64,000 nt of DNA from Gemmobacter sp. 24YEA27 (GTDB taxonomy: Bacteria > Pseudomonadota > Alphaproteobacteria > Rhodobacterales > Rhodobacteraceae), in the NCBI RefSeq assembly GCF_030052995.1, contig NZ_JASJPW010000003.1:1-64000 (forward strand), in the 5' to 3' direction. Of the stretch, positions 38,640-57,995 are shown one piece after another. The number at the start of each line of letters is the position of its first letter. Positions within the stretch are counted from its first letter, which is position 1. Position numbers and translations under genes: made by a program. Under the pieces are notes generated by a model. The model worked only from the letters and a program-made list of their open reading frames with translations. It was not told the DNA's origin and made no database searches.

Positions 38640-38683
38640 TGGAACCTCGGGCTGCATCGAACTGAAATCTTTTGACATCATAT

Positions 38684-38734
38684 GAAAGATATTGGAAGTA
38701 TTTTCCGGCACAATGTGGAATGTATTGAAATATT
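38684..38734. promoter_or_regulatory. Tandem repeats between pdxA2 and the DeoR gene, candidate operator
   Basis: The block GAAAGATATTGGAAGTATT (38684-38702) recurs in related form as GGAATGTATTGAAATATT (38717-38734), 33 bases apart, about three helical turns. The latter is also an imperfect palindrome. The repeats cover the only AT-rich stretch between the divergent genes and would let one DeoR protein control both. Confidence 0.5.
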
Positions 38735-38786
38735 CGCCGGGCCATTCCAGAATAGCCCGCAACCCAACCGCACCGGAAAGAAGCCC

Positions 38787-39563
38787 ATGCTGCCAGCCCT
38801 GCGCCAGGCCCGGATCATCGAATTCCTGCGCCGTGACGGGGCAGCGGGGCTGAAAGAGATGTCAGCCGCGCTCGGGGTCTCCGTCTCGACGCTGCGCCGC
38901 GATGTCGACATGCTTTTTGAGGCCGGGCATCTGGAACGCACACGCGGCGGCGCCCTGCTGACCGGCAGTCTGCGTGCCGGGCCAGAGCTCGGCCGCGCCA
39001 TCGCTTCCGAGCTGGAAAGCGGGGCAAAGGCAGCAATCGGGCGCGAGGCCGCGCAGCTGATCCGCCCCGGCATGACCGCGATCTTTGACAGCGGCTCCAC
39101 CACGGCATCGGCGGCGCGGGCGGCGCGCGACAGCGGCACGGCCTTTACCGCCGTCACCAATGATCTCGCAATCGCCGCGACGCTGGCGGAGGCGCCGCAG
39201 ATCCGCCTGATCGTCGCCGGGGGAGAGCTGCGCCCCGGTTCCGGCACGCTGATGGGGGCGGATACGCTCGATCTGATGCGGCGGCTGCGCGCCGATCTGG
39301 CTTTCGTCGGTGCCCATGCGGTCAGCGAGACCGAGATGTCGGACACTTCGGTCGAGCTGGCACAGCTCAAACGCGTGATCCTTGCCGCCGCCGACCGGCC
39401 AGTGCTGCTGGCGGACAGCTCGAAGATCTTCTCACGCGCCTTTTGCAGCTTTGGTCTGCTGCGACAGCTGGACCGGCTGGTGACGGATGACCGGCTGGGG
39501 CTTGATCAGCTGGCGGTGCTGCAACATGCTATTCCCCAGGTCGATCTGGCGGCACTGCCGTGA
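38787..39563 (+). CDS. DeoR-family transcriptional regulator
   Basis: A 258-residue sugar-pathway repressor. The N-terminal DeoR helix-turn-helix (RQARIIEFLRRDGAAGLKEMSAALGVSVSTLRRDVDML, in parts) is followed by the phosphosugar-binding DeoRC domain (IFDSGSTTASAARA, VTNDLAIAATLAE, and DSSKIF near the end). The start is the ATG 38787 behind GGAAAG. It is divergent from pdxA2 and overlaps the kinase gene by GTGA. It therefore probably controls the D-threonate-type module, with a phosphorylated intermediate as inducer. Confidence 0.88.
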   Translation: MLPALRQARIIEFLRRDGAAGLKEMSAALGVSVSTLRRDVDMLFEAGHLERTRGGALLTGSLRAGPELGRAIASELESGAKAAIGREAAQLIRPGMTAIFDSGSTTASAARAARDSGTAFTAVTNDLAIAATLAEAPQIRLIVAGGELRPGSGTLMGADTLDLMRRLRADLAFVGAHAVSETEMSDTSVELAQLKRVILAAADRPVLLADSSKIFSRAFCSFGLLRQLDRLVTDDRLGLDQLAVLQHAIPQVDLAALP

Positions 39564-40554
39564 GGCTGCGGCTGATCGCGGATGATCTGACCGGCGCGCT
39601 GGATGCGGCGGCGCCCTTTGCACGCGAGGCCGCGCCGGTGCGGCTGACGCTGTCAGCCGGCGGCGATACGCCTGCGCTGAGCCACAGCACCGAAAGCCGC
39701 GATCTGGCGGAACCGCTCGCCTGTGGGCTGGTGCGCGATGCCGCGCGCCGGATGGCGGACCCGTCGGCGCTCTGGTTCAAGAAGGTCGACAGCGTGCTGC
39801 GCGGCCACCCGCTGGCCGAGACGCTGGCGATGATGGCAGCCGGCGGTTTCGCGCGTTGCATCTTTGCGCCGGCCTTCCCCGAAATGGGCCGGATCACCAG
39901 GGAAGGGCGCCAGCTGGTGCTGGACGGCGGGACCTGGCGCGAGACCGCACAAGGCGATCTGCGCGCGGCTTTTGCCAGGCTGGCGCCCGAGCGCGAAATC
40001 CATGTGCCGGATGCGCAGAACGCGGCGGAACTGCGCGCAGCCATCCGCCCCTGGACCGGGATGCAAGGCACGCTCTGGGCAGGAAGCCGGGGGCTGGCCG
40101 AGGCGCTGGCCGCCCCCTCATCGCCCCTGCCGCGCCCAGAGGTCGGGCTTTTCATCCTCGGGACAGCGCATCCCGCCACCCGCGCGCAGGCGGCAGCGCT
40201 TGCCCCCTGATCCGTCCCGCATCAGGGGCCGGGCTCGACGCCGACAGCGCGAGACCTGTCCTGCTGGACCCGGTGCAGCTCAGCGCTGATGCGCGCGAGA
40301 CCCATGCGCGGCTGCGCGACAGCCTCTCGCGTCTGCAGCCCGGCGGCGCCGGCGCGATTTTCGTGACCGGCGGAGATTGTCTGAGCCTTGTTCTTGCTCA
40401 GACCGGCACCGAAGCCCTCGACTGTATCGGCGAGGCCGGTCCGGGCATCCCTGTTTCGCGCGTCATCGGCGGCCGGTTCGACGGGCGTTTGCTGGTCTCG
40501 AAATCCGGCGGTTTCGGCGGCGCCGATCTGCTGACAGGCTTTCTCAGGCGCTGA
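39560..40554 (+). CDS. DUF1537 four-carbon acid-sugar kinase (D-threonate kinase-like), one frameshift
   Basis: An ATP-dependent kinase of the DUF1537 family, ~331 residues after joining, shorter than the usual ~400. The N-terminal LIADDLTGALDAAAPFA, ALWFKKVDSVLRGHP and the C-terminal ATP-site VTGGDCLSLVL are family signatures. The GTG start overlaps the DeoR stop. A lost C in the CCCCC run 40203-40207 breaks the frame before LIRPASGAG. Paired with PdxA2 it matches the known D-threonate route (kinase, then oxidative decarboxylation to dihydroxyacetone phosphate). Its end overlaps the convergent isomerase gene by 11 bases. Confidence 0.82.
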
Positions 40555-41311
40555 CGGGGATTTCGCGGAAGGCGGGCAGCCAGCACAGCGTCTCAGCAGT
40601 CGTCCTGCCGGGCCGGTATTCCGCCCCGATGGGTGCCGTCCAGCCAAGCGCGCCGATCCGCGCGAGCACCGCGCGATAATCCAGCTCGCCATGATCAGGT
40701 GCGCCCCGGTCAGGGACCGAGGCGATCTGGACATGACCAATCAGCGGCAGCAGGCGCTCGAACCGCCGGCAGATATCACCGCCGCAGATCTGCAGGTGAT
40801 AGCAGTCGAACATCAGTTTCAGCGGCGGATGGCCGAGGCCTTCAATGATAGACGCTGCCTGTTCGGCGCTGTTGAGGAAATACCCCGGCGCATCATAGGG
40901 GTTCAGCGGCTCGATCAGAATGGTACGACCGCCTGCCCGCGCGCAGGCAAAGGCAAGATTGGCGCGGAACGCAGCATCGGCCTCCGGCCCGGAAGCGATC
41001 CCGGCCATCACATGTACCGCCCCGGCGCCAATCGCATCGGCATAGGCGAGCGCTTCGAGGATCGCATCCGCGCGCTCTGCCTCGCGCCCGGGAAGCGCCG
41101 CCAGCCCGTTCTCACCCGACGCCCCGCGCCGCGTGTTGAGGCCGAGCATCGGCAGCCCGGTCTCCTCCAGCGCCGCCTTCACCTGGGCCGACGGTGTCTC
41201 ATAAGGCCAGTGGCATTCGACCGCGTCGAAGCCGGCCTGTGCGGCGGCGCGGATCGCCTCGGGGAGTGGCAGATCGGCCCAGAGAAACCCGAGATTGGCA
41301 GAAAAGCGCAT
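40544..41311 (-). CDS. otnI: 2-oxo-tetronate isomerase-like TIM-barrel protein (hydroxypyruvate isomerase family)
   Basis: Intact 255-residue sugar-isomerase-fold protein. Metal-ligand positions are visible: the Glu in ILIEPLNPYDAPGYFL, the Asp and His in KLMFDCYHLQ, the conserved HVQIASVPDRGAPDHGELDY region, and Glu in IGAEYRPG. Members named Hyi or OtnI isomerise hydroxypyruvate or 2-oxo-tetronate. Last gene of the long leftward operon, 5 bases after the LtnD-like gene. With that dehydrogenase and the divergent otnK-otnC pair it completes the route from four-carbon aldonate to dihydroxyacetone phosphate, so OtnI is preferred over Hyi. Confidence 0.85.
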   Translation of the reverse strand: MRFSANLGFLWADLPLPEAIRAAAQAGFDAVECHWPYETPSAQVKAALEETGLPMLGLNTRRGASGENGLAALPGREAERADAILEALAYADAIGAGAVHVMAGIASGPEADAAFRANLAFACARAGGRTILIEPLNPYDAPGYFLNSAEQAASIIEGLGHPPLKLMFDCYHLQICGGDICRRFERLLPLIGHVQIASVPDRGAPDHGELDYRAVLARIGALGWTAPIGAEYRPGRTTAETLCWLPAFREIPVSA

Positions 41312-41316
41312 CCCGA

Positions 41317-42224
41317 TCAGCCCCCGCTGCCGGGCAGCGTGATTCCGGCCCGCGCGGCGAGCACCTTCGCCACTGCCGCATCATCCTCACGCCCGAGCCC
41401 GGCACCTGCGGCTTCACGGAACAGGGCAAGTGCGCTGTCGGAAAGCGGCACGCTGGCCCCAAGCCCAAAGCCGCGCCGGTCACGATGCCGAGATCCTTGA
41501 CGAAAATATCCACCGCCGAATGCGGCGTATAATCGCCATCGGCGATATGCGGCGCGCGGTTGCCAAACATCCAGCTCATCCCGGCGCAATCGCCGATCAC
41601 CCCGATCACCTCATGCAGATCGAGGCCGGCGGCGCGCGCCAGCACCATCGCCTCGGCCGCAGCCGCAATATGCACCCCAGCCAGCAACTGGTTGATCATC
41701 TTCATCTTTGACGCGGCCCCTGGTGCCGCGCCCAGCCGGAAGACCCTGCCCGCAATCGCGTCAAGCGCCGGGCCGGCCTTGAGGAACGCCGCTTCGGGGC
41801 CAGAAGCCATCACGCTCATCTCGCCCGCCAGCGCCTTCGCGGAACCACCTGAAACCGGGGCGTCCAGCGGCAGCATCCCGGCCTCGCGCAACCGGCGCGC
41901 CTGATCTTCGGCCCGCGCCGGGTCCTGCGTCACCGAGACCGCGAAGACGGTACCAGACTGTGCCGCCGCGACCGCCTGGCCGGTGCCGAACAGCACGTCT
42001 TCGGCCTGATCGGCATTGACGACGAAAAGGAAGACCACCTCCGCCGCCGCGACTGCCGCAACAGCGGTCTCATGGGCGCAACCGCCCTGCGCGGCGAAAT
42101 CCGCCCGCGCCTCGGGGCGGATATCAAAGGCATGGGTTTCCAGCCCGGCGCGCAAGAGCGACAAAGCCGCGCCACGCCCCATAGAGCCAAGACCGATCAC
42201 GGCCACAGCACCCGTCCGGGTCAT
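41317..42224 (-). CDS. ltnD: L-threonate/beta-hydroxyacid dehydrogenase (LtnD-like), one frameshift
   Basis: A ~303-residue NAD-dependent dehydrogenase of the 3-hydroxyisobutyrate/tartronate-semialdehyde reductase family. The Rossmann motif VIGLGSMGRGAALSLL is at the start, LDAPVSGGSAKALAGEMSVM in the middle, and the catalytic lysine lies in ASKMKMINQLLAG. The frame is lost at ~41464 (a G missing in GGGG on the coding strand) and resumes with GLGASVPLSDSALALF. Second of two adjacent ATGs is best spaced from GGAG. In the four-carbon pathway LtnD oxidises L-threonate to 2-oxo-tetronate, the substrate of the next gene's isomerase. Erythronate specificity is also possible. Confidence 0.82.
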
Positions 42225-42250
42225 CATCTTCTCCGTTAAAAGGCCCGGCC

Positions 42251-43015
42251 TCAGCCGAGCGGTCTGCCGCCATCCACGGCGATCACCGCGCCGGTCGAAT
42301 AGGTCAGAAGCCCCGCCGCCGCGACCACTGCATCGGCGATATGCTCCGGCTGCGCCAGAGCGCCAAGCGGCGTGCGCGCGGCCTGCTCGTCGCGCCAGTC
42401 CTGGCTCAGTGATTTGACGAAATCGGTATCGACCAGCCCCGGCGCCACCGAAAGCACCCGGATCTTCGGCGACAACGCCCGCGCGAGCGACAGCGTCATA
42501 TTGTCGACCGCCGCCTTTGACGCGCAATAGACGATGTTCGATCCCATCCCCGTCCGGGCCGCGATCGAGGAGATGTTGACGATCACTGCCTTGCCGCCCG
42601 CGCCCCGGTCGGACGCATCCAGCATCGGTCGCATGGCGCGGGTGGTGGCGACCACACCGCGCACATTCACCGCAAGGATATCGTCGATGATCTGATCCTC
42701 CAGCGCGTCAAGATCGTCATGCGGCACGAAACGCGTGATGCCGGCGCAGTTCACCAGAATATCCAGCCCGCCAAACGCCGCGCGGATCTCTGCCGCCGCC
42801 TCTGCCAGCGCGGCGCTGTCGGTGACCGGTGCGCGCAAAGGCAGATGCCCCTCGCCCGGCATCAAAGCCGCCAGCGCCTCCGCCCCGGCTGCGGCACTGT
42901 TATAGCCAAGTGCCACCCGCGCGCCCGAGGCTGCGAGTCCGATGGTGATGGCGCGCCCGAGCCCGCCGGTCGCGCCGGTGACGAAGGCGCGTTTGCCTGT
43001 AAGGTCGATCTTCAT
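42251..43015 (-). CDS. Short-chain dehydrogenase/reductase
   Basis: Intact 254-residue SDR. NAD(P) motif TGATGGLGRA (residues ~14-23), NCAGITR, the catalytic Ser in VNISSIAARTG and the YxxxK in VYCASKAAVDN are all present, as is the C-terminal GAVIAVDGGRPLG. Four-base overlap (ATGA) with the upstream dehydrogenase gene. It probably reduces or oxidises a hydroxyl of the imported polyol or sugar acid; substrate unknown. Confidence 0.88.
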   Translation of the reverse strand: MKIDLTGKRAFVTGATGGLGRAITIGLAASGARVALGYNSAAAGAEALAALMPGEGHLPLRAPVTDSAALAEAAAEIRAAFGGLDILVNCAGITRFVPHDDLDALEDQIIDDILAVNVRGVVATTRAMRPMLDASDRGAGGKAVIVNISSIAARTGMGSNIVYCASKAAVDNMTLSLARALSPKIRVLSVAPGLVDTDFVKSLSQDWRDEQAARTPLGALAQPEHIADAVVAAAGLLTYSTGAVIAVDGGRPLG

Positions 43016-43956
43016 TTCGCGCCTTCCCGCGCCCTGAAAGCGGCGAGCCGCGTCAGGCGCCCGTCGCGCCAGGCCCTGCGGGCCGCAAGCTCGCCCTCCG
43101 GCAGCGCCGCACGGCGCTCGGCGGAGATGCGGGCGATAAGGTCAGCGGACCAGGGCTGCGGGTCGCGACGGGACTCAGCGATGGAATGATAGAGCGGCCC
43201 GAGCCGCGCTGCGTAATCGACCACCCCGCCCGGCGCGTTGAGGTCGATGGTCTCGAACGGCCCCATGAAAGACCAGCGCAGGCCGAGCCCATGTGCCACA
43301 GTCGCATCAATATCCGCCGCCGTCGCATAGCCCGCGTCATAAAGCGCCCAGGCCTCGTTCAGCAGCGCGCCTTGCAGGCGGTTCAACACAAAGCCCTCAA
43401 TCTCGCGCGTCAGCGAGACGGGGACCTGACCCACCGCCTCCATCAGCGCGCGGGTCGAGGTGACGGCATCCACGTCGGTCCAGGGCGCCGGCACCAGCTC
43501 CACCACCGGCACCAGATGCGGCGGGTTGACCGGATGCGAGATCAGGAAGCGATTGCGGTTCGCACAGTCTTCGGTGAAAGCCGAGGCCGGGATCCCCGAT
43601 GAGGACGAGCCAACCACCGCGCCTGCCTTCAGCAGCGGGCCAATCTGACGGCAGACCTCTGTCTTCACATCCACCCGCTCAAAGACAGATTCCTGGATAT
43701 AATCGGCGGGGCTGACGGCTTGCGACAGGCTTTCCACCACGCTGATCTTCGCCAGCGCGGCGCCTGCATCATCGGCCAGCCCAACCTCAGCCAGGTCGTT
43801 CAGCGCGGTCTGCGCCCAGGGGATCACCTTCGCACGGACCTCGGGCGACGGATCAAACACCAGCACCTGATGCCCGGCGCGGGCGAAGACCACCGCCCAG
43901 CCGGAGCCGACCAGCCCGGCCCCGACAATCCCTATTACAGCTTTTCCTGACATCAT
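43012..43956 (-). CDS. 3-hydroxyacyl-CoA-dehydrogenase-fold dehydrogenase (L-gulonate/L-carnitine dehydrogenase-like)
   Basis: Intact 314-residue two-domain NAD enzyme. The Rossmann motif IGIVGAGLVGSGWAVVFARAG opens the protein, SSSSGIPASAF and the catalytic histidine in ISHPVNPPHLVPVVELV follow, then the helical C-terminal domain (GFVLNRLQGALLNEAW). Stand-alone members of this length act on free hydroxy acids (L-gulonate, carnitine) rather than CoA thioesters. It overlaps both neighbours by four bases. The presence of a third oxidoreductase besides LtnD and the SDR suggests that more than one stereoisomer, or a longer sugar acid, is fed into the pathway. Confidence 0.85.
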   Translation of the reverse strand: MMSGKAVIGIVGAGLVGSGWAVVFARAGHQVLVFDPSPEVRAKVIPWAQTALNDLAEVGLADDAGAALAKISVVESLSQAVSPADYIQESVFERVDVKTEVCRQIGPLLKAGAVVGSSSSGIPASAFTEDCANRNRFLISHPVNPPHLVPVVELVPAPWTDVDAVTSTRALMEAVGQVPVSLTREIEGFVLNRLQGALLNEAWALYDAGYATAADIDATVAHGLGLRWSFMGPFETIDLNAPGGVVDYAARLGPLYHSIAESRRDPQPWSADLIARISAERRAALPEGELAARRAWRDGRLTRLAAFRAREGAK

Positions 43957-44844
43957 GCGACTTTCGAGGCCTCACCATCGGCGAGGCAGATTTCCGAGAT
44001 GCGCAGCCCGTCTTTGGTGATTCGCGAGGGGAAGGTGTCGCGCAGCCGCTCCTCATGGACCGGGATCACACGATGAGCGTCATAGCCGGCCTGCTTCATC
44101 ATCTCTTCCGTCGCCAGCACCAGATTGGTCTGACTGCCGACGGCGAGGCCGACCGGCACATAGATCTCGCCAGCATCGACAGCAGCCCCCGGGCCTTTCA
44201 CGTTTTCAAAGACATAGACCAGATCGCCGGTCAGCACCCAGGGGTCTGCCGTCTGTGTCTGACCGTCATTCCGGACCGTGACCCACATCGAGCCATAGGT
44301 GTGGCTGTCTTCGGCCAGATGCAGATCGATCCCCGGCAGAACATTCTCGACGGCGCCATTGACAGTGATCAGCCGGCGGTCGCGTGCCAGCTCCACCCCG
44401 CGCACGATATCGCCGGGATCGACCGCGACCATCATCCAGCGCATCCGCTCGGGCAGCGACATCGCCCAGACCCATTTCGCGATCTCGCGCTCCTGGATGT
44501 AGAATTTGGCGTTGGGAAAGTCTTCGACATTGCCGAAATGGTCGAAATGCGCATGGGTGATGAAGACGGTATCGACATCTTCCGGCGTCAGCCCGATCCC
44601 GGCCAGAACCTCACGCGGGCTGCGCCAGTTTCTCGACCTTGAAGCGGTCGCCCAGCGTTTTGCCGTAAGCCTTGTCATTATAGCCGACATCGACCATGGC
44701 GACGTGATCCTTGCCCTTGATCACGACATAGCAATAGGGAAGCTTCACATAGCCCTGGTTATGGGCGCCATAGAGTACGCCGCTCTTGTGATAGTCTTTC
44801 ACGAACGAATATTCACAAACCCAGATCGAATAGTCGGACATCAT
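43953..44844 (-). CDS. Metallo-beta-lactamase-fold hydrolase, one frameshift
   Basis: A ~296-residue MBL-fold protein. It starts at one of two adjacent ATGs (44844 or 44841) behind GGAGG. The zinc motif HxHxDH is in FITHAHFDHFGN, a further histidine is in AEDSHTYGS, an Asp in VLTGDLVYVFENV, and the last His in VIPVHEERL. The frame changes near 44630 by an apparent extra G (EKL then RSPREVLAGIG). Members resemble lactonases (AttM/AiiA-type N-acyl homoserine lactonases). In this operon, hydrolysis of an aldonolactone to the free acid before LtnD is an attractive but unproven role. Confidence 0.8.
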
Positions 44845-44866
44845 TTCCTCCCAGAACTGTCCCGGA

Positions 44867-45445
44867 TCAATGCCCGCCGCAGGCGCAGCAGGCATGGCTG
44901 AAATCAATCATCTGCAGTCCGGCGCGCGTCTCGGCGCAGGTTTCCAACACGGCATATGCGCGGCGGATCTGCGCATTGAGCGCGTCGAAAGTGGCGTCTC
45001 CCCCCGGCGCATCCGCCCGCCAGGCGACCAGCCCGTCAAGGATCGCGCGGCAAAGTCCGGCGCTTTCGGCAAGCCGGTCGCGATGGGGGCCAAGTGGACC
45101 GGGGGCAACAAGCGCGGCGAGCTGCGCGGCAATCTCCGCCTCGCGCTCGCGGCAGGCTTTCACCTCGGGCAGACCGGCGTGATCGGGGCGCGAAGTGAGC
45201 CGCGCGAGGATCAGAAGTCCGGCCAGCTGCCCGACCAGCCGACGCAGATCGTTGAAAACGGCGCGGGCCGCGATGCCGTAGCGCCCGGCAGCGTCGGAGG
45301 CGAGCGCCCGCGCGATTTCGCCCTCGTCAGGCAGGCTCTCAGCGGGTGGCGGCTGCATCGGGGCGGTGCAATCGGGGCGGTGCAGCACCGCGAGCCGCTC
45401 AAACAGCGCGGCACCCTGCGGGCGGGAGATGGGATGGCCGCTCAT
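44867..45445 (-). CDS. Protein of unknown function with Cys/His-rich C-terminus
   Basis: Intact 192-residue protein that I do not recognise. It is predicted soluble, largely helical and Ala/Leu/Arg-rich, with no signal peptide and no membrane segment. The C-terminus ends HACCACGGH, a cluster of three cysteines and two histidines that could bind metal. Its stop is 23 bases before the MBL gene and its start overlaps the LacI stop by ATGA, so it is co-translated in a catabolic operon. Codon use resembles its neighbours. Possible roles are a small metal-binding accessory factor for a neighbour or an activator of transport; neither is supported by a motif. Confidence 0.7.
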   Translation of the reverse strand: MSGHPISRPQGAALFERLAVLHRPDCTAPMQPPPAESLPDEGEIARALASDAAGRYGIAARAVFNDLRRLVGQLAGLLILARLTSRPDHAGLPEVKACREREAEIAAQLAALVAPGPLGPHRDRLAESAGLCRAILDGLVAWRADAPGGDATFDALNAQIRRAYAVLETCAETRAGLQMIDFSHACCACGGH

Positions 45446-46482
45446 TCTTGTCTCCCCGCGGTGGTGCCACGTTCGATCAGCGGTTTCGGGGCGATACGGT
45501 GCAATTCGACCGGCGTCCCCGGATCAGCTGCCAGCCGCGCCGCCAGATCGACGGTGACCGCCAGCATCTGGTCAATCGGCTGCGGGATCGTTGTCAGAGA
45601 ATGCGATGGCCACGAGGCCATGGCGATATCATCGAAACCGACCACTGAAATATCAAGCGGGGCCCCGATCCCCAGCCGCGCCCGCACGCCTTCGACAAAG
45701 CCGATGGCGACGATATCATTGGCGCAGAACACGCCATCCGGGCGCTCCGACAGCGCGGCGAAGGCCTCGGCGCCCGAGAACCCGGCCTCATAGCTGAAAT
45801 TCCCGACCTCAACCTTTTGCGGCTCAGAGAGGCCACGCTCCAGCGCGCGGTCGCGAAAGCCCTGCCAGCGTTCGATATTGGTCGAGGCATCGGGAAAAGC
45901 CGCGACATAGCAAAGCCGCCTGTGCCCCTTGTCGATCAGGTGATCGGCGGCCATGCGGGCGCCGGTGATATTGTCACAGGTGACACCATGCCCGGCCGGG
46001 TCCGAGGACAGCCGGTTAAAAAAGATACAGGCGGTGCCGGCGGCGGTACATTCCTGCACCGCGCGCGAGGACATGGTGGCGGCGAGGATGATGATCAGAT
46101 CAGGCTGATAGGTCAGCGCCTGTTCCACCGCCTCATCGATCCGCTCGGGCGCTTCGGCGGAGACCAGCATGACATTCATGCCGATCTCCTGGAGCGCTGT
46201 GGTCAGCCGGGTCATCACCTCCGGATAGAAAGGGTTGGTGATGCCCGCGACCACAAGGCCGACGATTCGCGTCCGCCTTGTGATCATCGACCGTGCGAAA
46301 GGGTTGGGCCGGTAGCCCATCTCTTCCGCGGCTTCCAGAACCTGGCGGCGGGTTTCCGGGGCAACGATGGCATCGGGATAGAAGGCGCGCGAGACGGTCG
46401 AAACCGACATCCCGAGCGAGCGGGCAAGATCCTTGACCGTCACCCGCTTGCGCGAACCACCTTTATTGCTGTCGTCACTCAT
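45442..46482 (-). CDS. LacI-family transcriptional repressor
   Basis: Intact 346-residue regulator. The N-terminal LacI HTH (VTVKDLARSLGMSVSTVSRAF) is followed by the hinge and a periplasmic-binding-type sensor (TRIVGLVVAGITNPFYPEV...FCANDIVAIGFVEG and VVGFDDIAMASWPSHSLTTI). It lies inside the four-carbon acid-sugar operon, between the HisD-like dehydrogenase and the unknown protein. The palindrome at 52831-52859, built from the TGCAAACGTT core typical of LacI operators, is its likely target, making the operon self-regulated. Confidence 0.92.
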   Translation of the reverse strand: MSDDSNKGGSRKRVTVKDLARSLGMSVSTVSRAFYPDAIVAPETRRQVLEAAEEMGYRPNPFARSMITRRTRIVGLVVAGITNPFYPEVMTRLTTALQEIGMNVMLVSAEAPERIDEAVEQALTYQPDLIIILAATMSSRAVQECTAAGTACIFFNRLSSDPAGHGVTCDNITGARMAADHLIDKGHRRLCYVAAFPDASTNIERWQGFRDRALERGLSEPQKVEVGNFSYEAGFSGAEAFAALSERPDGVFCANDIVAIGFVEGVRARLGIGAPLDISVVGFDDIAMASWPSHSLTTIPQPIDQMLAVTVDLAARLAADPGTPVELHRIAPKPLIERGTTAGRQE

Positions 46483-46499
46483 AACCCTTGCTCCGGTCT

Positions 46500-47786
46500 T
46501 CAGGCTGCGTTGGAACCGCCATAGCGGCGAACGCGGATATTCGCCTGTTCTGCATGGCCCGCAAAGCCCTCAAGCATACAAAGCCGCGAGGCATATTCGC
46601 CGATCATCGCCGAAGCGGCGTCAGTGGTGACGCGCTGATAGGTGCAGGTCTTGATGAACTTGCCGACCCACAGCCCGCCGGTATAGCGCGCGGCCTTTTT
46701 GGTTGGCAGCGTGTGATTGGTGCCGATCACCTTGTCACCATAAGCAACATTGGTGCGTGGGCCAAGGAAGAGCGCGCCGAAATTCTGCATGTTTTTCAGG
46801 AAGTAATCCGGGTCGCGGGTCATGACCTGGACATGCTCATAGGCCAGATCATCGGCGACTTTCAGCATCTCCTCTTCACTGTCGCACAGGATCACCTGGC
46901 CGTAAGCCTCCCAGGCCTTGCGCGCGATATCGGCGGTCGGGAGCACGCCAAGCTGGCGCTCGATCTCGGCCAGGGTGTCATTGGCAAGCTTTTCCGAGGT
47001 GGTGATCAGCGCCGCCGGGCTGGTCGGGCCATGTTCGGCCTGGCCCAGAAGGTCGGTCGCACAGATCTCGCCATCAACGGTGTCGTCGGCGATCACCAGC
47101 GTCTCGGTCGGGCCGGCGAAAAGGTCGATGCCGACGCGGCCGTAAAGCTGACGCTTTGCTTCGGCGACAAAGGCATTGCCGGGGCCGACCAGCATATCGA
47201 CTGGCGCGATGGTCTCGGTGCCGATCGCCATGGCGCCAATGGCCTGAACGCCGCCGAGGCAATAGATCTCATCGGCGCCGGCGAAATGCATCGCCGCGAC
47301 GATGGCCGGATGCGGTTTGCCATGGAAGGGCGGCGCGCAGGCGATCACCCGCTTCACGCCGGCAACCTTGGCCGTCAGAACCGACATATGCGCCGAGGCG
47401 ACCATCGGGTATTTACCACCCGGCACATAGCAGCCCACGGCTTCGACCGGCACATTGCGATGGCCGAGGAAGACGCCCGGCAGAGTTTCGACCTCCAGAT
47501 CCTTCAGGCAATCGCGCTGCGCCTTTGCGAAGTTGCGGACCTGGGTCTGCGCGAAATGGATATCCTCCAGATCGCGGGGCGAAACTTCTGAAATCGCCTG
47601 CTGGATTTCAGTCTCTGAGAGGCGGAAGCTTGCCGGCGCATAGCCGTCAAATTTACCTGCCAGCTCGCGCACGGCGGCATCTCCGCGCGCCTCGATATCG
47701 GCAAGGATCGTCTCGACGGTTTCCTTAACGACGGCATCATTCGCCGAGATCGCTTCGGCCGTCTGTCCCTGCTTGAGGTATCTCAT
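46500..47786 (-). CDS. HisD-like polyol/alcohol dehydrogenase (histidinol dehydrogenase family)
   Basis: Intact 428-residue zinc dehydrogenase of the HisD family. Family positions are visible: [53 protein letters not shown], the Gln/His pair in [13 protein letters not shown], Asp in [17 protein letters not shown], and the late His in [13 protein letters not shown]. Histidine biosynthesis is unlikely here: the gene sits between a LacI regulator and a ribose-type importer. HisD paralogues such as HpsN (sulfopropanediol 3-dehydrogenase) oxidise a primary alcohol to a carboxylate in two NAD-dependent steps. Oxidising a four-carbon polyol or aldose end to threonate or erythronate would feed LtnD. 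Confidence 0.85.
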
Positions 47787-47896
47787 GATGGTGGTCCGGT
47801 TCCTGTGTGGTGGCCAGTCGGGAAAATCACGCGCGGGGACGGGAGCGGTCCCCGCGCGCAGGGGTTGCGGGCCGGGCTCAGCCGGCGCGACAAGGG

Positions 47897-49111
47897 TCAG
47901 GGCTGAACGGTCGGCTCGACCTTGGTCAGCTTGTAGAGATCAGCGGGCGGCTCGCAGTCCTGGCAGTTGATGCCCGGCTCGTTGGCGCCTGCCGGCACAT
48001 CTGCGGGCAGTGCCTGGATGGTTGCGCCCTCAACCGGGGTGCCGTTCAGCGCCGAGTCGATGGAAAGCTCGGGCAGCAGCACCGGGTCCAGCACCTGGGT
48101 GACGAAGGAAGACGGCACGCGGTCGGCCGGGAAGGCATTGCAGCCATTCTCGAATTTCTCGCCTTCACAGATCTTCACATCGGCAGCCGGCACCCAGGGC
48201 AGCGGGAATTCGATATTCATCGGCTCCAGCTCGCGCTTGCCTTCAAGGATCTCCATCATCAGTTTGAACGCATAGCCCGATTGCGCCGGTGGCGAGCCAG
48301 CCGAGACACCTTTGAGGCCCTTGGCCTGCATGTCGGGATCTGCCAGCGCGAGGCGGAAGCCATTCGAGTTTTCACCGGTCATCGCGACAAGACGGGCGCC
48401 TGCATCAAGCAGCGCCTGGATAGCACCGAATTCACCGGCCTGGGCCCAGATGCCGTCGACATCCGGATGCGCGGCCAGCGCTTTGGCCGTTTCCTGCTGC
48501 GTGGTGCGGTCGTCCCAGTAGGAATAGTATTCCGCCACAACTTCGATGCCGGGATACTGGTTGAAGACATGCATCGCGCCATCGGTATGGCGCTTGTCGA
48601 CCGAATTGCCAGGCACGCCGCGCGACAGGAAGATCTTGCCCTTGCCGCCCAGTTCGTTGACCAGCGCCTGAGCCGAATTCTCACCAAAGCCCGAGGTGAT
48701 ATAGCTGACATTGTAAGCGCAGGGCTCGGTGACGGTGGCGTCATAGGTGAAGAACAGGACCCCCTCATCGCAACCGCGTTTGATGGTGCGGTTCAGCGCG
48801 GTCGAGGAAATCGGGAACGTGATGATCCCATCGGCACCATCCTCGATCATGCTCTCATAGGCCGAGATCTGCGCCTGGGGGTCAGTGCCCGAGATCACCT
48901 CGATCAGCTCAACCGTCTCGTTATAGGGCGCTGTTGCCGCAAGGGCCTTAACGATATTCGCCGCCTCCGACTGCCAGGAGTTGCCGGAATAGGAGAGTGA
49001 GAGATAGATCTTGTATTTCTTGCCCTCTGCCGCAGCCGGGCCGGCGGCAAGCACACCTGCAGTGGCCAGAGCCAGCGCCGAAAGCGAGAGTTTCGCGAAT
49101 GTGGTGGTCAT
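47897..49111 (-). CDS. Periplasmic sugar-binding protein, ribose type
   Basis: Intact 404-residue type-I binding protein. The signal peptide runs from [20 protein letters not shown] to an AxA site at GPAAAEG; AGGAGG precedes the ATG. The mature part begins [19 protein letters not shown] and has the domain-crossing segments [16 protein letters not shown] and [20 protein letters not shown]. It is longer than RbsB (~300), with a C-terminal extension of ~80 residues that carries a CQDC pair. Its operon position makes it the binding protein for the ribose-type importer; the ligand is probably the polyol, sugar or sugar acid degraded by the operon. Confidence 0.88.
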
Positions 49112-49189
49112 GGTTTCGTTTCTCCTCCTGAAAATCTGTTGGTCTCTGCATCCGGCGCCCGCTCAGGCAGGCGCCGCCCTCCCCTGACC

Positions 49190-50226
49190 TCAGCCCTTGC
49201 GGACCAGGGCACGGATCTTCTCGAACACCTCGTCGCGCAGCAGCAGCAATGCGACGAGGATGATGGTGCCTTCGATGATCGTGCGAAGGCCGAATTGCAG
49301 CCCGATCGCCGAGATGATGGTGCCGAGCGTCGTCAGCAGGATCGCGCCGCCGACGGTGCCGAGGAACGAGCCGGAGCCGCCAAGGATCGACGAACCGCCG
49401 ATCACCACCGCCGCAATCGAGGGCAGCATGTAATTGTCACCCATCCGCAGCGTGGCGCCGTTCGAATAGCCGGCCAGCATCATGCCGGTGAAACCGGCGC
49501 AGGCGGCGCTGATCACATAGGGCGCCACCTGTGCGGTCAGCATCGGGATGCCGGCGATGCGCGCGGCCTCGGGATTGGTGCCAAGCGCGTAGAGATAGCG
49601 GCCAAGCGTGGAACGCGACTGCACCAGCCAGCCGAACGCCACGAAGAGGATCACGAACACCACCGGCAGCGGCACGCCGGCAAGATGCGATTTCATCAGC
49701 CAGGTCAGCGCTTCGGGCGAGGCCCCGCGCGGCGTCCCCTTGGTCATGCCAAGCGCGACCGATGCCACGATAATCGAGGTCGCCATGGTCATGATGAAGG
49801 GCGGCACTTTCAGCCAGACGACGCCGATGGCGGTGGCAAGCCCCACCCCGGCGCAGATCACCACGACAAGCGGCAGGAGATACCATGCACCGGGATTACC
49901 CGCCCCCACGAGACTGGTCGCCAGCACCCCGCCAAGGGTGATCAGCGCCGGCAGTGACAGGTCAAGCCCGCCGGTCAGGATCACCAGCCCCTGGCCGAAC
50001 GAAAGGACCACGAGGAAGGAGGCCAGCACCATCACGGTCTGCACCTGCGCCCATGAGCCGAGATTGGGGCTGATGAAGCGCGAGCCAAGCAGCATGAGGA
50101 TGCAGATCGCAAAGACCGCGAGCGTCGAGATCGTCTCGCGTGAGATCCTGGCCGCGCCACGCCGGTCGGGGATGCTGCGTAACCTGAGGATTTTTCGGCT
50201 GAAGTGGAAGTAATCATCTGTTTCAT
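49190..50226 (-). CDS. ABC transporter permease, ribose (RbsC) type, copy 1, one frameshift
   Basis: A ~345-residue permease. The main frame carries LASFLVVLSFGQGLVILTGGLDLSLPALITLGGV, the RbsC signature seen here in parts, and YALGTNPEAARIAGIPM. The N-terminal ~45 residues are in the preceding frame: ATG at 50226, then one G is missing in the start region, after which DYFHFSRKILRLRSIPDRRGAA and ISTLAVFAICILMLLGSRF continue. The ATG follows the copy-2 stop by one base. Two different permeases in one operon imply a heterodimeric channel. Confidence 0.85.
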
Positions 50227-50227
50227 C

Positions 50228-51222
50228 TCAGCGCTTCCCAAGGCCTGCGCGCCCGATGCCCGCCAGCACACCGCTGAAGACCACGCGAGGATCAGCACCG
50301 CGCCCTGGAAAATCCCGGTATAGAAAGAGGCGACGCCGCTGGAGAACAGCACCTTTTGCAACAGCATCAGAGTGCCCGCCCCATGACCGAGGCGAAAAGC
50401 CCTCCCTTGCCGCCCGTGAAAGCGGTGCCGCCAAGCGCCACGGCGGCAAAGGCCAGCATCAGCAGTGGCGTCCCGGCATTGGGGTTGCCGGTCGCGGTCT
50501 GCGCCGAGAGCATATAACCGCCAGCCCGTAAAGCATTCCGGCGCCGACAAAGGTCAGGAAGCGCGCCCGCGCCACCGGCACGCCGGAAAGCCGCGCCGCC
50601 TGTTCATCCTCGCCAATGGCGTAAAGCGCGACACCCCAGTCGGTGCGGCGGGCGAGGCTCCAGATCACGATCACCGCCAGCACGACCAGCCCGGAAACCG
50701 GCACCACCCCCAGAGCCGGTCAGTCAGCTCATAGCTCACCCAGTTGGCCACCTGGCCGCCGGGCGCATCAAGGATCACCAGTGCGATGCCCTGGCAGATG
50801 ATCATCGTGGCCAAAGTCGCCGCGATAGCCTGGAGCCGCAGCCCCGCCACCAGCCAGCCATTGACCGCGCCGACCACCGCGCCGATGCCAAGACAGATCC
50901 CCAGCGAGGCCAGCGCCCCAGCTGGCCCCTGCAGGGGATAGACCGCCATCACCACATTGGTGAGCGAGACCACCCCGGCGAGCGAAAGGTCAAAGCCCCG
51001 CGACAATACCACCAGGGTCTGGCCTGCGGCGGCAAGCGCCAGCGGCACCGAATTGTTCACCAGATTGCCAAAGGCTCCCAGAGACCAGGCGCGCGGCTGC
51101 TGCCAGACATTGATCGCGTAAAGGATGACATAGATCAGCACGATGAGCACCGCGCCCTCGGTCAGAAGGCTTTTGAGCACCGGCTTTCGCTTCATTTGTC
51201 TCTGTTCAGTCGCGGAACTCAT
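50228..51222 (-). CDS. ABC transporter permease, ribose (RbsC) type, copy 2, about four frameshifts
   Basis: A ~333-residue permease split over several frames. The first part is intact (AVLIVLIYVILYAINVW, VLSRGFDLSLAGVVSLTNVVMAVY, LVAGLRLQAIAATLATMIICQG). Frames change near 50700, 50525, 50385 and 50280. The pieces SLARRTDWGVALYAIGEDEQAARLSG, AGYMLSAQTATGNPNAGTPL and GAGTLMLLQKVLFSSGVASF follow in family order. It ends with TGA at 50230-50228. The start overlaps the RbsA-type stop by ATGA. This is the most damaged gene of the window, probably by base-calling losses. Confidence 0.78.
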
Positions 51223-52790
51223 GCCGCCTCCCCTTTTGCGCGGGGAGCATGTTCCGCTCCCTGGCCCAACATGGACGCGACAAGGCGCTGTTCGGTGATC
51301 GCCTCGCCCTCGAAAACGCCATTCACGCGGCCGCCGTAAAACACCAGCGCGCGGTCGGCGAGCTGGACGATCTCGGGCAGTTCGGATGAGTAGAACAGCA
51401 CCGAGCCGCCCTCATCGGCAAAGGCCCGGATCGCGTCATAGATCGCCTGTTTGGTGCCGACATCGACGCCCCGCGTCGGGTCGTAAAGCACCAGCGTGCG
51501 GGCCCCCGTCGCCATGGTGCGCGCGATCAGCGCCTTCTGCTGATTGCCGCCCGAGAGGTCTCCGATGGCAAAACCCAGATAGCGCGGGCTCAGATCAACC
51601 TTCGCGGCCGTCTCAAGCGCATGTTTTGCCTCTGCTTTCGGCCCGACAATCAGCGCGCGCGAGATACGGCCCAATACAGGCAGCACCACATTCGAGGCGG
51701 TGGAGAGGCCGGCCAGGATACCCTCGGTCTTGCGCTCTTCGGGCAGGAAGGCGATGCCGCTGCCGGCGGCCAGCGCCTGGCGCGGGCTGCGCAGTGTGAC
51801 GGGCTTGCCATCGACACGGATCTCACCGCTGCTGACCGGCTCCAGCCCGGCAAGCATCCGGAAGAGCCCGCGCTGGCCCTGTCCCTCCAGCGCCGCGACG
51901 CCCAGAACCTCGCCCGTGCCGAGCGTGAAACCGGCGCCGTTCACGCCCCGGCCGGTTACGTCTTTCACCTCAATCCGGTGGGTGGCTGTCGCACGTGGCG
52001 CGCGGGCCGGGCGGGCGTGATCGACCTTGTGGCCGACCATCATCTCGAAAATATCGTCATCATCCGCCGCCGCCAAATCGACGCTCGCAATCGAACGCCC
52101 GTTCCGGAGAACGGTCGCCCGCGTCGCCAGTTCGCGCACCTCCGGCAGGCGGTGCGAGATATAGAGCACCGCAAGGCCGCGCGCGGTACTCTTGCGGATC
52201 AGATCGAACAGCCAGTCGGTCTCAGCCAGCGAAGCAGTCGGCTCGTCAAGAATAAGCAGTTTTGAGGCATGTTCCATCGCGCGCAGGATCTCGATGCGCT
52301 GGCGCTCGGCCAGCGGCAGATCGGCGATCAGACTGCGCGGGCTGATGCGGCCCATATCGTATTTAGCCAGGGTGGCCGCCGCCTTTTCCTCGCCAAGGCG
52401 GCGGGAATTGATGCCAAAGCCACCTTTTGGCTGCTGCGGCAAATGCAGGTTCTGCGCCACGGTCAGGTTGCGCACGAGGCTCAGCTCCTGAAACGCGGTC
52501 GCCACGCCCATGCTTTGGGCCGCAAGAATCGAGCCCGGCGCATAGGCCGCCGCGCCGATCTGCATCTCGCCCTGATCCGGGCGAACCGCGCCGGTCAGGA
52601 TCCGAACCAGCGTCGATTTACCAGCGCCATTCTCGCCCAGAAGCGCATGGACCTGGCCCGCCGCCAGCGAAATATCGGCATGTTCCAGCGCAACGGTCGC
52701 CCCGTAAGCCTTACGCAGGCTTTCGGCACATAGCGCCACCGCCCCCGCAAATGCAGGGCTGCCGCTTTCGCGGCCGGTCGCATCAGACAT
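51219..52790 (-). CDS. Sugar ABC transporter ATP-binding protein, RbsA/MglA type (two NBDs)
   Basis: Intact 523-residue double ATPase. The first domain has Walker A LLGENGAGKST, a divergent signature LPLAERQRIEI and Walker B LLILDEPTASL. The second has a degenerate Walker A (ALEGQGQRG), signature DLSGGNQQKALIA and LYDPTRGVDVGTKQAIY. This asymmetry is normal for the family. The start is the ATG at 52790 behind GAGGAG; a longer frame to 52859 would run through the operator. First gene of the 12-gene leftward operon. Confidence 0.92.
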   Translation of the reverse strand: MSDATGRESGSPAFAGAVALCAESLRKAYGATVALEHADISLAAGQVHALLGENGAGKSTLVRILTGAVRPDQGEMQIGAAAYAPGSILAAQSMGVATAFQELSLVRNLTVAQNLHLPQQPKGGFGINSRRLGEEKAAATLAKYDMGRISPRSLIADLPLAERQRIEILRAMEHASKLLILDEPTASLAETDWLFDLIRKSTARGLAVLYISHRLPEVRELATRATVLRNGRSIASVDLAAADDDDIFEMMVGHKVDHARPARAPRATATHRIEVKDVTGRGVNGAGFTLGTGEVLGVAALEGQGQRGLFRMLAGLEPVSSGEIRVDGKPVTLRSPRQALAAGSGIAFLPEERKTEGILAGLSTASNVVLPVLGRISRALIVGPKAEAKHALETAAKVDLSPRYLGFAIGDLSGGNQQKALIARTMATGARTLVLYDPTRGVDVGTKQAIYDAIRAFADEGGSVLFYSSELPEIVQLADRALVFYGGRVNGVFEGEAITEQRLVASMLGQGAEHAPRAKGEAA

Positions 52791-52830
52791 AGATCTCCTC
52801 CCTCGCCCCGGAGACGTTTGCGTCAGACTA

Positions 52831-52859
52831 ATGCAAACGTTCTCTGGGAACGTTTGCAT
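52831..52859. promoter_or_regulatory. LacI-type operator, perfect 11-bp inverted repeat
   Basis: ATGCAAACGTT (52831-52841) and AACGTTTGCAT (52849-52859) are exact reverse complements around CTCTGGG. Each arm contains the TGCAAACG/CGTTTGCA half typical of LacI-family sites. A third related half, GACGTTTGCGTC, lies at 52813-52824. The site is ~40-70 bases upstream of the RbsA-type start and also faces otnK. The 52860-53209 gap holds no gene. Confidence 0.75.
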
Positions 52860-53209
52860 ATAAGGATGATTCCATTCTTCGGGTCAAGCTGTTAAATTTG
52901 TGCCCGGATCAGACTACGGCACAGGGCCAGAACAGCGCGTAAGCCAAGATCCGGCACACCTGGGTGCTGAGGAATATTATTACATGTTTTCCATGTGTTA
53001 CAGAAGAACGGATCGCGGGCTTAACAAATCCGTACCGGGTGAGTCGCGGCCTGCCTTCCGCCTGCCCGGAGAAATGCCGGCTCCGCAGCTTGCTTCCGCG
53101 GCGCAACCCGCCCCGCCTGGGATCCGGCACTGACCAACGCCGCGCCTGTCCCCCCCGCAGGTGCCTGTCTCGCCCTCACTCTCAACCCCTCTTCCATCGG
53201 AAAGCCCAT

Positions 53210-54472
53210 ATGCTTCTTGGCTGTATTGGTGACGACTTCACCGGCTCAGGCGACCTCGCCAATACCCTCGCCCTTCAGGGCATGCGGGTGACGCAATTCT
53301 GCGGCGTGCCCGCAGGACCCGCAGATCCCGGTATCGAGGCCGGTGTGGTTGCGCTGAAATCCCGCACCATATCGGCTGATGCGGCGATTGCCCAAAGCCT
53401 CGCCGCACTGGACTGGCTGCGCGCGCAGGGCTGCCGGCAATTTCTGTTCAAGTATTGCTCAACCTTTGACTCTACACCCGAGGGCAATATCGGCCCCGTC
53501 ACCGCCGCGCTGGCCGAGGCACTGGCCGCCCGCAAGGTGGTGGTCTGCCCTGCCTTTCCCGGAGCGGGCCGCACGGTCTACCAGGGGCATCTCTTTGTGA
53601 ATGACCGGTTGCTGAGCGAAAGCGGGATGGAGAACCACCCCCTCACCCCAATGACTGACCCCGATATTCGCCGCTGGATGGCAGCCCAGACCGTTCTGAA
53701 AACCGGCCATATCGGCTTTGCCAGCGTGCGCCAGGGTGCGGCAGAGATCGCCGCTGCGCTGGCGCGCGCGGATGCGGCGGGTGCCAGGCTGATCGTCGTC
53801 GATGCGCTCTCGGATCAGGACCTGATCGAGATCGGTACCGCGCTGGACGGGGTTCCGCTGGTTACCGGCGGCTCGGGGGTCGCGATGGGGTTGCCGGGAA
53901 ATTTCCGCCGCCGGGGGCTGCTGGCAGGCGGGCAGAACGGCTGGCAGGGCGTTAGCGGCAAAAGCGCGGTACTGTCGGGATCATGCTCCAACGCGACGCG
54001 CGGCCAGGTGGCGCGACATCAGGCTCAGGGCCTTCCTGTGTTTGAGATCAGCGCCGACGCCGCCGTTGCCGGCGCACTGAATCCCGAAGAAATCGCCGCC
54101 TGGGCACTGGCGCAAGACAATCGCCCGCTGATTTACTCATCCGCCGATCCGGCAGTGGTGCGGGCGGCGCAGGAAAAACACAGTCGCGACCGCGCAGCCG
54201 GAGCGATCGAAGCGCTGTTTGCGGCCATCGCCCGGGCGTTGGTTGCGGGCGGGATTGGCCGGCTGATCGTCGCGGGCGGCGAGACGTCCGGAGCGGTAGT
54301 TGAGGGGCTGGGCCTGCATTCACTGGAAATAGGACCGGAAATCGCACCCGGGGCACCGGCTTTGCGCAGCGGCCTGCCAAATGGCAGCGCGCTTGCCCTC
54401 GCGCTCAAATCCGGGAATTTCGGGGGGCCCGATTTCTTTGCCGAAGCCGATACAATCCTGGGCGCGACATGA
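53210..54472 (+). CDS. otnK: 3-oxo-tetronate 4-kinase (DUF1537 family)
   Basis: Intact 420-residue DUF1537 kinase from the ATG at 53210. It has the N-terminal GCIGDDFTGSGDLANTLALQGM, FKYCSTFDSTPEGNIGPV, FPGAGRTVYQGHLFVN, GGSGVAMGLP and the C-terminal ATP-site VAGGETSGAVVEGLGL. In the known L-threonate/D-erythronate pathways OtnK phosphorylates 3-oxo-tetronate for decarboxylation by OtnC. The gene overlaps the aldolase-family gene by ATGA and is divergent from the operon carrying OtnI and LtnD. The open frame extends upstream to 52964, but that part is outside the family. Confidence 0.9.
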   Translation: MLLGCIGDDFTGSGDLANTLALQGMRVTQFCGVPAGPADPGIEAGVVALKSRTISADAAIAQSLAALDWLRAQGCRQFLFKYCSTFDSTPEGNIGPVTAALAEALAARKVVVCPAFPGAGRTVYQGHLFVNDRLLSESGMENHPLTPMTDPDIRRWMAAQTVLKTGHIGFASVRQGAAEIAAALARADAAGARLIVVDALSDQDLIEIGTALDGVPLVTGGSGVAMGLPGNFRRRGLLAGGQNGWQGVSGKSAVLSGSCSNATRGQVARHQAQGLPVFEISADAAVAGALNPEEIAAWALAQDNRPLIYSSADPAVVRAAQEKHSRDRAAGAIEALFAAIARALVAGGIGRLIVAGGETSGAVVEGLGLHSLEIGPEIAPGAPALRSGLPNGSALALALKSGNFGGPDFFAEADTILGAT

Positions 54473-55114
54473 GCGAGGAAACCCGCCTGCGCGACGACAT
54501 CTGCCGCTTTGCCCGCTCGATCTTTGAGCGCGGCCTGACCTGCGGCGCCTCGGGGAACATCTCGGCCCGGCTGTCGGATGGGAGATTGCTGGTAACGCCC
54601 ACCGGCTCCAGCATGGGATCGCTCGAGCCGGGCCGTCTCGCGCTTTTCGACGCCGATGGACGCCAGACAGCTGGCGATGCCCCGACCAAAGAAATGGCCC
54701 TGCACGAGGCGTTTTACGACACCAGAAAGGGCGCCGGCGCGGTGGTGCATCTGCATTCAACGCATTCTGTGGCGCTTTCCGTGCTGCCCGACACCGACCC
54801 GACAATGTGTTGCCGCCGATCACCGCCTATTCAGTGATGCGACTCGGCAAAGTGAAGCTGCTGCCTTATTTTGCGCCCGGCGATCCGCGATGGGCGATGC
54901 GGTGCGCAGCTTGGCCGGGCGTCGCTCGGCGGTGCTGCTTGCACATCATGGGCCGGTGGTGGCCGGGAAGGATCTCGACGCCGCCGTGAATGCGATTGAG
55001 GAACTGGAAGAGACCGCGAAGCTGGTCCTGCTGACCCATGGCCGCCAGCCGCGCCTGCTGACCGAGGCGCAGATCACTGATCTCGTGCGCCGTTTCGGGC
55101 TCGAACTCGACTGA
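54469..55114 (+). CDS. otnC: 3-oxo-tetronate 4-phosphate decarboxylase (class II aldolase family), two frameshifts
   Basis: A ~215-residue class II aldolase/adducin-fold enzyme. The first frame has FERGLTCGASGNISARLSDGRL, VTPTGSSMG, the acid-base region TKEMALHEAFY and the zinc histidines of VVHLHSTHSVALS. The next carries PPITAYSVMRLGKVKLLPYF, and the third RSAVLLAHHGPVVAGKDLDAAV with the third zinc histidine. Shifts near 54810 and 54890 are one-base losses. OtnC converts 3-oxo-tetronate 4-phosphate to dihydroxyacetone phosphate and CO2, the last step of the pathway encoded on both sides of the LacI operator. Confidence 0.83.
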
Positions 55115-57930: not shown

Positions 57931-57995
57931 CGGGCCACCTCAGTGAACCGGGGCGCGACACACGCAAACGCCTGTGCGCGCCCCGTAATTTAGGG

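Follow-up and report, generated by a model that had tools for sequence, protein, structure and literature searches.

Gene content of the locus

We examined a 64,000 nt stretch of Gemmobacter sp. 24YEA27 (NZ_JASJPW010000003.1; this whole stretch is called the window) that carries genes for the four-carbon acid enzymes LtnD, OtnI, OtnK and OtnC together with a group of importer, regulator and enzyme genes, here called the entry block. Along the minus strand, from 52859 to 40544, the order is an ATP-binding cassette (ABC) importer ATPase, permease A, permease B, a binding protein, a HisD-like dehydrogenase, a LacI-family regulator, a 192-residue protein (U192), a metallo-beta-lactamase (MBL) fold hydrolase, a 3-hydroxyacyl-CoA-dehydrogenase-fold enzyme (HCDH), a short-chain dehydrogenase/reductase (SDR), LtnD and OtnI (Table 1). 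All of these, including the two-permease, ribose-type nature of the importer, as well as OtnK and OtnC, had been recognised in an earlier note on this DNA, and profile searches bear the assignments out, with the coordinates right.

As the minus-strand genes overlap or are separated by at most about 110 bases (judged from the ends of the open reading frames (ORFs) and the sequence), they likely form a single operon. OtnK and OtnC lie on the plus strand from 53210, divergent to this operon, and are therefore not co-transcribed with the remaining genes; the co-transcription that the earlier note had claimed for the whole set thus likely applies to the entry block, LtnD and OtnI, but not to OtnK-OtnC. 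A second four-carbon acid set (PdxA, a DeoR-family regulator and a DtnK-like kinase, 37626-40554) adjoins OtnI, the gene for the DtnK-like kinase converging on that of OtnI. The description of the locus as a self-contained system was right as to the genes present, but overlooked this adjoining set. Five frames, that of the DtnK-like kinase among them, are broken.

Table 1. Features of the locus, with the matches on which each assignment rests (L126 is the locus of the sister genome G008)
Feature	Position	Strand	Matches
ABC importer ATPase, CUT2/RbsA type	51219..52859	-	PF00005, two domains; AraG/RbsA models ~368 bits, below their own cut-offs
Permease A, broken frames; 333 aa intact in L126 (17174-18175)	50284..51222	-	PF02653 on N-terminal piece; extent from tblastn
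Permease B; longer single frame in L126 (16135-17220)	49190..50095	-	PF02653; PRK09512 118 bits
Periplasmic binding protein of the importer	47897..49111	-	PF13407 164 bits; nearest solved chain 4pe6, 91 bits
HisD-like dehydrogenase, motif GKYPM and Asp-Lys	46500..47786	-	PF00815 469 bits, TIGR00069 457 bits (cut-off 244); nearest solved chain HpsN, 408 bits
LacI-family regulator	45442..46482	-	PF00356, PF13377
U192, 192 aa, no known family; predicted helical bundle, invariant C-terminal A-C-C-x-C	44867..45445	-	No Pfam/NCBIfam match
MBL-fold hydrolase, AHL-lactonase-like, broken frame; 317-aa frame in L126 (10899-11852)	43953..44841	-	PF00753; HxHxDH
HCDH, 3-hydroxyacyl-CoA-dehydrogenase-fold enzyme	43012..43956	-	NF004783 412 bits (cut-off 347); closest solved lambda-crystallin, 3ado, 191 bits
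SDR oxidoreductase	42251..43015	-	PF13561/PF00106
LtnD, L-threonate dehydrogenase, broken frame	41317..42227	-	NF043037 329 bits over intact part (cut-off 350); sister copy 371 bits
OtnI-like, 2-oxo-tetronate isomerase	40544..41311	-	NF043033 238 bits, top-scoring model yet below cut-off 325
OtnK, 3-oxo-tetronate kinase, divergent	53210..54472	+	NF043035 555 bits (cut-off 350); start codon read from sequence
OtnC, split frame	54469..55114	+	NF043034 in two pieces, 160 and 76 bits (cut-off 250)
PdxA-family dehydrogenase, candidate D-threonate-4-phosphate dehydrogenase; coordinates of the ORF, the start codon probably being internal	37626..38762	-	PF04166 324 bits; TIGR00557 339 bits (cut-off 290)
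DeoR-family regulator beside PdxA and DtnK-like kinase	38682..39563	+	PF00455, PF08220
DtnK-like four-carbon acid sugar kinase, two frames; 331 aa in sister	39560..40554	+	PF07005 89 bits; NF047819 89 bits, sister 107 (cut-off 450)

Conservation of the entry block

The entry block is a real conserved unit. Searching named genomes and plasmids for HisD, and searching with a U192 profile, yielded 22 loci with the block, two of which (L172 and L176) are on short contigs. HisD is present in 21 of the 22, the exception being L172, a contig of 5,082 bases, and in nine of the ten loci found by means of the U192 profile (L172-L181). In 19 of the 22, an SDR gene lies no more than 4 kb from HCDH.

U192 and the MBL-fold protein form a strict pair, the U192 gene being directly upstream of the MBL gene and on the same strand in 27/27 loci, all of which also retain the HxHxDH metal motif of the MBL protein. 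Five of these loci (L182-L186) have no HisD and no close HCDH in the DNA examined. Against the curated cut-off for acyl-homoserine lactone (AHL) lactonases (AiiA/AttM), the window's piece of the MBL protein falls short (33.8 versus 375).

The U192 profile found matches in 11 of 374 genomes of the family of Metarhizobium, 3 of 348 of that of P. viridiflava and 1 of 394 of the window's own (starting genome counted in each). U192 itself seems rare: one database search returned 27 homologues, although the profile reached more in Pseudomonas. An alignment of the window's U192 with 26 of these homologues (P0134 being left out) has invariant Cys and His positions, including those of the C-terminal motif. 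The predicted helical bundle (model pLDDT 81.6) gave no informative fold match. Substitutions relative to the sister genome fall on codon positions 1 to 3 in the numbers 5, 5 and 16, and U192 is therefore a true coding frame.

Residues and relatives of the HisD-like dehydrogenase

The HisD-like protein passes the cut-offs of both TIGR00069 and PF00815, models that do not tell HpsN from HisD. Its nearest solved relatives are HpsN, the 3-dehydrogenase of 2,3-dihydroxypropane-1-sulfonate (DHPS), true HisD reaching 256 bits at most. Passages of PMC11382572 describe HpsN as performing a HisD-like four-electron alcohol oxidation in catabolism, on R-DHPS, so that the double oxidation of an alcohol by such a protein, put forward in the earlier note as a new step, is not new in kind. 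The same passages name the His of the G-R-Y-A/S-H motif and Lys353 as the residues of CpHpsN in contact with the sulfonate. The window's protein has G-K-Y-P-M in place of that motif and matches the Zn ligands, Glu318, His319, Asp352 and Lys353 of HpsN, the Zn ligands and catalytic Glu-His being conserved across its clade.

These signatures were surveyed in 105 tblastn hits of at least 68% identity, the window's copy included. The site of the sulfonate-binding His is occupied by Met in 64 and by Leu in 41, never by His, in a motif that mostly reads G-K-Y/F-P-M/L, and the Asp-Lys at the 352-353 site of HpsN is kept in all 105. Among ten hits at 44-55% identity, His is found in seven and Leu in three, with Asp-Lys in all ten, whereas the seven intact copies at about 40% identity, which were taken as true HisD, all have Asp-Tyr. 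The genome's own HisD is encoded elsewhere (C1:2066539) and is about 40% identical to the window's HisD-like protein. In the phylogenetic tree, many forks of which are weak, the clade is a branch separate from the GRYSH proteins. The HisDs of block loci are spread over several branches of this clade in the drawn tree (the automatic clade count omitted unlabelled rows), and its members therefore seem exchangeable.

From these residues, we read the HisD-like protein as fitting neither the histidinol dehydrogenase nor the DHPS dehydrogenase class, and as representing a separate class with a putative anion-binding pocket. Database records name genes of this clade histidinol dehydrogenase or sulfopropanediol 3-dehydrogenase, and the clade has the signature of neither. 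Among plasmid records, 186 have a HisD match at an E-value of 1e-100 or lower, and in 125 of them the match is at 60-80% identity. Our search of the open-access PMC literature found no paper on this clade.

A second divergent HisD homologue is present in the window's genome (G000, C1:689418-690646; L003, L004 and L128), in two frames and with altered residues at the Asp-Lys site. Genome G008 has a single-frame homologue at a similar distance (C1:3020367-3021572), 35% identical to the HisD-like protein of the window.

The genes within 7 kb of HisD were surveyed at 98 loci. GntP-like permeases occur at 8 of them and TctC proteins at 16 (8 of these at 50% identity or more); proteins of both kinds usually serve carboxylates. 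An HpaI/GarL-like aldolase is found at seven loci, and an SDR of one type at 68 (54 of them at 40% or more), the lineage of the window having another type that is 31-33% identical to the first. The retained Lys, like the transporters found near relatives, speaks for an acid as the substrate of the HisD-like protein, perhaps with a diacid as product, which makes a neutral polyol one option only.

Several of these neighbourhoods recur. HisD is accompanied by a permease and LacI at L022, L025, L030, L031, L033, L034, L119 and L120 (Pseudomonas, Acinetobacter, Raoultella, a Klebsiella record and a Salmonella plasmid). We take this permease to be kin of GntP; the Klebsiella record names it D-beta-hydroxybutyrate permease, and the Pseudomonas copy has no Pfam match. 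At L036, L040, L045, L049, L054, L069, L074, L075, L077 and L078, the HpaI/GarL-like aldolase (seven loci) or a MetE-like protein (six loci, three shared) is found within 7 kb. An 11.4 kb plasmid of Geobacillus subterraneus, a member of the Bacillota (L124), has LacI and this HisD among its four listed genes.

Linkage to four-carbon acid routes

Linkage was counted within the DNA examined for 20 block loci, L172 and L176 being left out as they are on short contigs. A kinase set of the PF07005 type is linked to the block in 14 of the 20 (the window, L126, L005, L006, L007-L010, L115 with L125, L175, L177, L178, L180 and L181) versus 0 of 72 loci that have the same HisD without the block (Fisher p ~3e-12, ignoring kinship and with flanks extended for some block loci and not others). 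Within a single HisD search the numbers are 6 of 8 versus 0 of 72 (p ~9e-8, kinship again ignored), four of the six being one Mesorhizobium-type locus. G998, G826 and G1063 have block loci without the kinase, and each of these genomes has a PF07005 kinase elsewhere, beside an OtnC that exceeds its cut-off; this check covered those three and not the genomes of L116, L017 and L168.

The linked kinases belong to one superfamily (PF07005) and the step that follows differs, being either an aldolase-type OtnC decarboxylase or a PdxA dehydrogenase. PdxA with a DtnK-type kinase is found at L006-L010, L115, L175, L177 and L178, and OtnK/OtnC at L180 and L181; both sets occur in the window, and L005 combines OtnK/OtnC with a partial DtnK-like match. 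Identity is 44% between the OtnK of the window and that of L005, 35-39% between DtnK-type kinases and about 60% between PdxA proteins of three lineages. The back-end is on the strand of the block in L005, L007-L010, L177, L178 and L180. In L180, a single strand carries in succession the block, a galactarate-dehydratase-like enzyme, OtnK and OtnC, and the DNA examined gave no match for LtnD or OtnI.

The chief reason for regarding a tetronate as the product of the block is that the block has repeatedly been joined to differing tetronate routes, which argues that it is tied to four-carbon acids. The conserved module probably imports and prepares a compound of the four-carbon sugar acid type. The earlier note's link between these genes and four-carbon acids is thus upheld by the linkage counts and the two alternating routes, but entry through HisD acting on a neutral polyol or aldose is unsupported as stated, given the Lys retained throughout the clade and the GntP-like and TctC proteins near its relatives.

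Broken frames and the sister genome

Five genes are split into at least two frames in the window, namely those for LtnD, the MBL protein, permease A, OtnC and the DtnK-like kinase. The corresponding locus of the sister genome (L126) is 95.9% identical over 14.5 kb and has single frames for LtnD, the MBL protein, both permeases and DtnK. The differences in length between the two are one-base indels, several in short single-base runs, except for one of three bases. As the frames broken in the window are intact in its sister, assembly error appears the likeliest explanation for LtnD, the MBL protein, permease A and DtnK. The frame of OtnC has no such counterpart, since the OtnK-OtnC site of G008 (L197 5078-5277, versus 53125-55474 of the window) measures about 0.2 kb instead of 2.35 kb and lacks both genes. 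A PF07005 kinase and OtnC are present on a different contig of G008, so, after the divergence of the two genomes, this back-end has either joined the block or left it.

Beyond OtnC, the minus-strand genes at 56477-60639 of the window encode an amino-acid-type ABC importer, an SDR and a fumarylacetoacetate-hydrolase-family (FAA hydrolase) protein.

Proposed pathway and alternatives

We consider it somewhat probable that the locus is a catabolic operon under LacI control, which serves a small compound resembling a sugar acid, or the lactone of such a compound, and feeds the tetronate routes. Gene content, conservation, residue signature and the alternation of back-ends are observed; the reactions given below for the entry block are all inferred. 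The ribose-type ABC importer would, by its family, take the compound up. The MBL protein, with U192 as its partner, may hydrolyse a lactone, as suggested by its complete metal motif and the strict pairing. HCDH and SDR would be NAD(P) dehydrogenases acting on secondary alcohols of the hydroxy acid, adjusting its oxidation state or stereochemistry to give 3-oxo-tetronate or a threonate isomer. The HisD-like protein has the residues of a zinc- and NAD-dependent four-electron dehydrogenase, and its predicted target is a terminal CH2OH beside a metal-binding hydroxyl; it would either make a tetronate from an alcohol or convert a hydroxy acid to a diacid. By the families present, tetronates would be converted to dihydroxyacetone phosphate by LtnD-OtnI-OtnK-OtnC and/or the DtnK/PdxA pair, the latter being also a tetronate route to this product.

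Several observations weigh against this interpretation. The SDR is found in only 19 of the 22 block loci and is of two types (11 and 8). Six of the 20 loci counted (L116, L017, L168, L173, L174 and L179) have no linked kinase in the DNA examined, and L017 carries an FGGY kinase where others have the PF07005 kinase. Many forks of the HisD tree are weak. Four-carbon genes are lacking near most relatives of HisD, so the substrate of HisD itself need not have four carbons. In R. ruizarguesonis, a binding protein of 79% identity lies beside an alpha/beta hydrolase without the block, and in Aminobacter sp. MSH1 one of 61% identity (L135) has genes for nitrile hydratase and amidase next to it. The absence of OtnK-OtnC from the G008 site implies that their linkage in the window is not old. 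OtnI stays below its equivalog cut-off (238 versus 325), though it is the best-scoring model, as does the kinase on the DtnK model, which is named for a gamma form (89 in the window and 107 in the sister, versus 450). PdxA scores 276 bits on the D-threonate-4-phosphate dehydrogenase model (cut-off 583) and is the sole PdxA found in the genome, and could therefore have a housekeeping role, although three of seven genomes of the genus searched (G001, G004 and G006) have no PdxA match, so that PdxA is not universal in the genus.

The alternatives differ chiefly in what they make of the HisD-like protein. It could oxidise a hydroxy acid or a sugar acid at its terminal CH2OH to give a second carboxylate (tetronate to tartrate, or 3,4-dihydroxybutyrate to malate, for example), in which case it would be a parallel outlet rather than an entry and would not stand upstream of the core. 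The retained Lys agrees with this, as do the small operons of HisD, permease and LacI in Pseudomonas, Raoultella and Klebsiella and the diacid-type enzymes near relatives (the HpaI/GarL-like aldolase at 7 of 98 loci, the galactarate-dehydratase-like enzyme of L180, and RraA with a sugar-acid dehydratase in Advenella). We nonetheless find it rather doubtful, as the block yielded no recognised enzyme of tartrate or malate metabolism, GarD-like, RraA and IlvD/Edd-type enzymes occur at one locus each, and relatives at other loci lie beside quite different enzymes (a cyclase, an FAA hydrolase, a MetE-like protein). Less likely still is a double oxidation of a neutral C4 polyol or aldose (erythritol, threitol or threose) to a tetronate that LtnD or DtnK would then use: the linked tetronate back-ends fit it and, according to parts of PMC11382572, HisD-fold enzymes do perform four-electron alcohol oxidations, but the anion-contacting Lys of HpsN is never lost in the clade and GntP-like or TctC proteins accompany relatives.

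A chance juxtaposition of two unrelated operons, to which the placement of OtnK-OtnC on the other strand and their absence from the G008 site might point, is improbable in view of linkage that recurs with different back-ends and, at the eight loci named above, on the strand of the block. We regard as most improbable of all a pathway for DHPS or another sulfonate in which the HisD-like protein is an HpsN. HpsN is indeed its nearest solved relative, the Lys is kept, some sources call relatives sulfopropanediol 3-dehydrogenase, and the dehydratase-like enzyme of L180 presumably belongs to a superfamily that also includes sulfolactate sulfo-lyase; its sole NCBIfam match is galactarate dehydratase, at 381 bits of 731. 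However, the G-R-Y-A/S-H motif is replaced, its His is absent from all 105 hits, the clade branches apart from the GRYSH proteins, and the annotated neighbours include no desulfonating enzyme, though no search was aimed at these.

Taken more widely than the catabolic operon proposed above, the HisD-like clade would add to the HisD fold a third functional class that is widespread in Proteobacteria. Its members would be Zn/NAD four-electron dehydrogenases acting on a terminal CH2OH, whether in a hydroxy acid, a sugar acid or its polyol, and would be coupled in one conserved operon to a two-protein lactonase (MBL with its orphan helical, Cys-rich partner) and to interchangeable four-carbon acid routes. 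We find this plausible while stopping short of calling it probable. Finding the substrate of the clade would set many annotations right and establish a new specificity among dehydrogenases. The U192-MBL pair offers a small system in which to study a lactonase that possibly depends on a partner, and, with back-ends that alternate, a few C4 acids and lactones would suffice for testing the pathway.

Comparison with known systems

LtnD, OtnI, OtnK and OtnC convert L-threonate to dihydroxyacetone phosphate, as stated in sections of PMC12540250, and the growth genetics of this pathway are treated in sections of PMC10580937. The window shares with the L-threonate/D-erythronate pathway (LtnD/DenD-OtnI-OtnK-OtnC) an LtnD whose sister copy exceeds the equivalog cut-off, an OtnK that does so itself, an OtnC in two pieces (the L005 homologue scores 292 bits, above the cut-off of 250) and an OtnI for which this is the best model; no DenD was recognised in the cluster. 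Unlike the pathway as described in those sections, the core of the window is joined to the entry block.

Catabolism of D-threonate reportedly proceeds through DtnK and PdxA2. The window and rhizobial loci have a PdxA above its family cut-off beside a PF07005 kinase and a DeoR regulator, but the kinases score far below the DtnK cut-off (85-176 bits versus 450), and their function is predicted by family.

HpsN (PDB 8v35, 8wwe) has in common with the HisD-like protein the fold, the Zn ligands, Glu-His and Asp-Lys, but differs in the Met/Leu that replaces its sulfonate-binding His, in belonging to a separate clade and in that no sulfonate genes were recognised near the HisD-like protein. Histidinol dehydrogenase likewise has the same fold, Zn ligands and catalytic Glu-His, with Asp-Tyr where the HisD-like protein has Asp-Lys. 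The closest solved relative of HCDH, lambda-crystallin, is an L-gulonate 3-dehydrogenase. The system is real, conserved and tied to four-carbon acids, and varies on kinds already known without being a new one.

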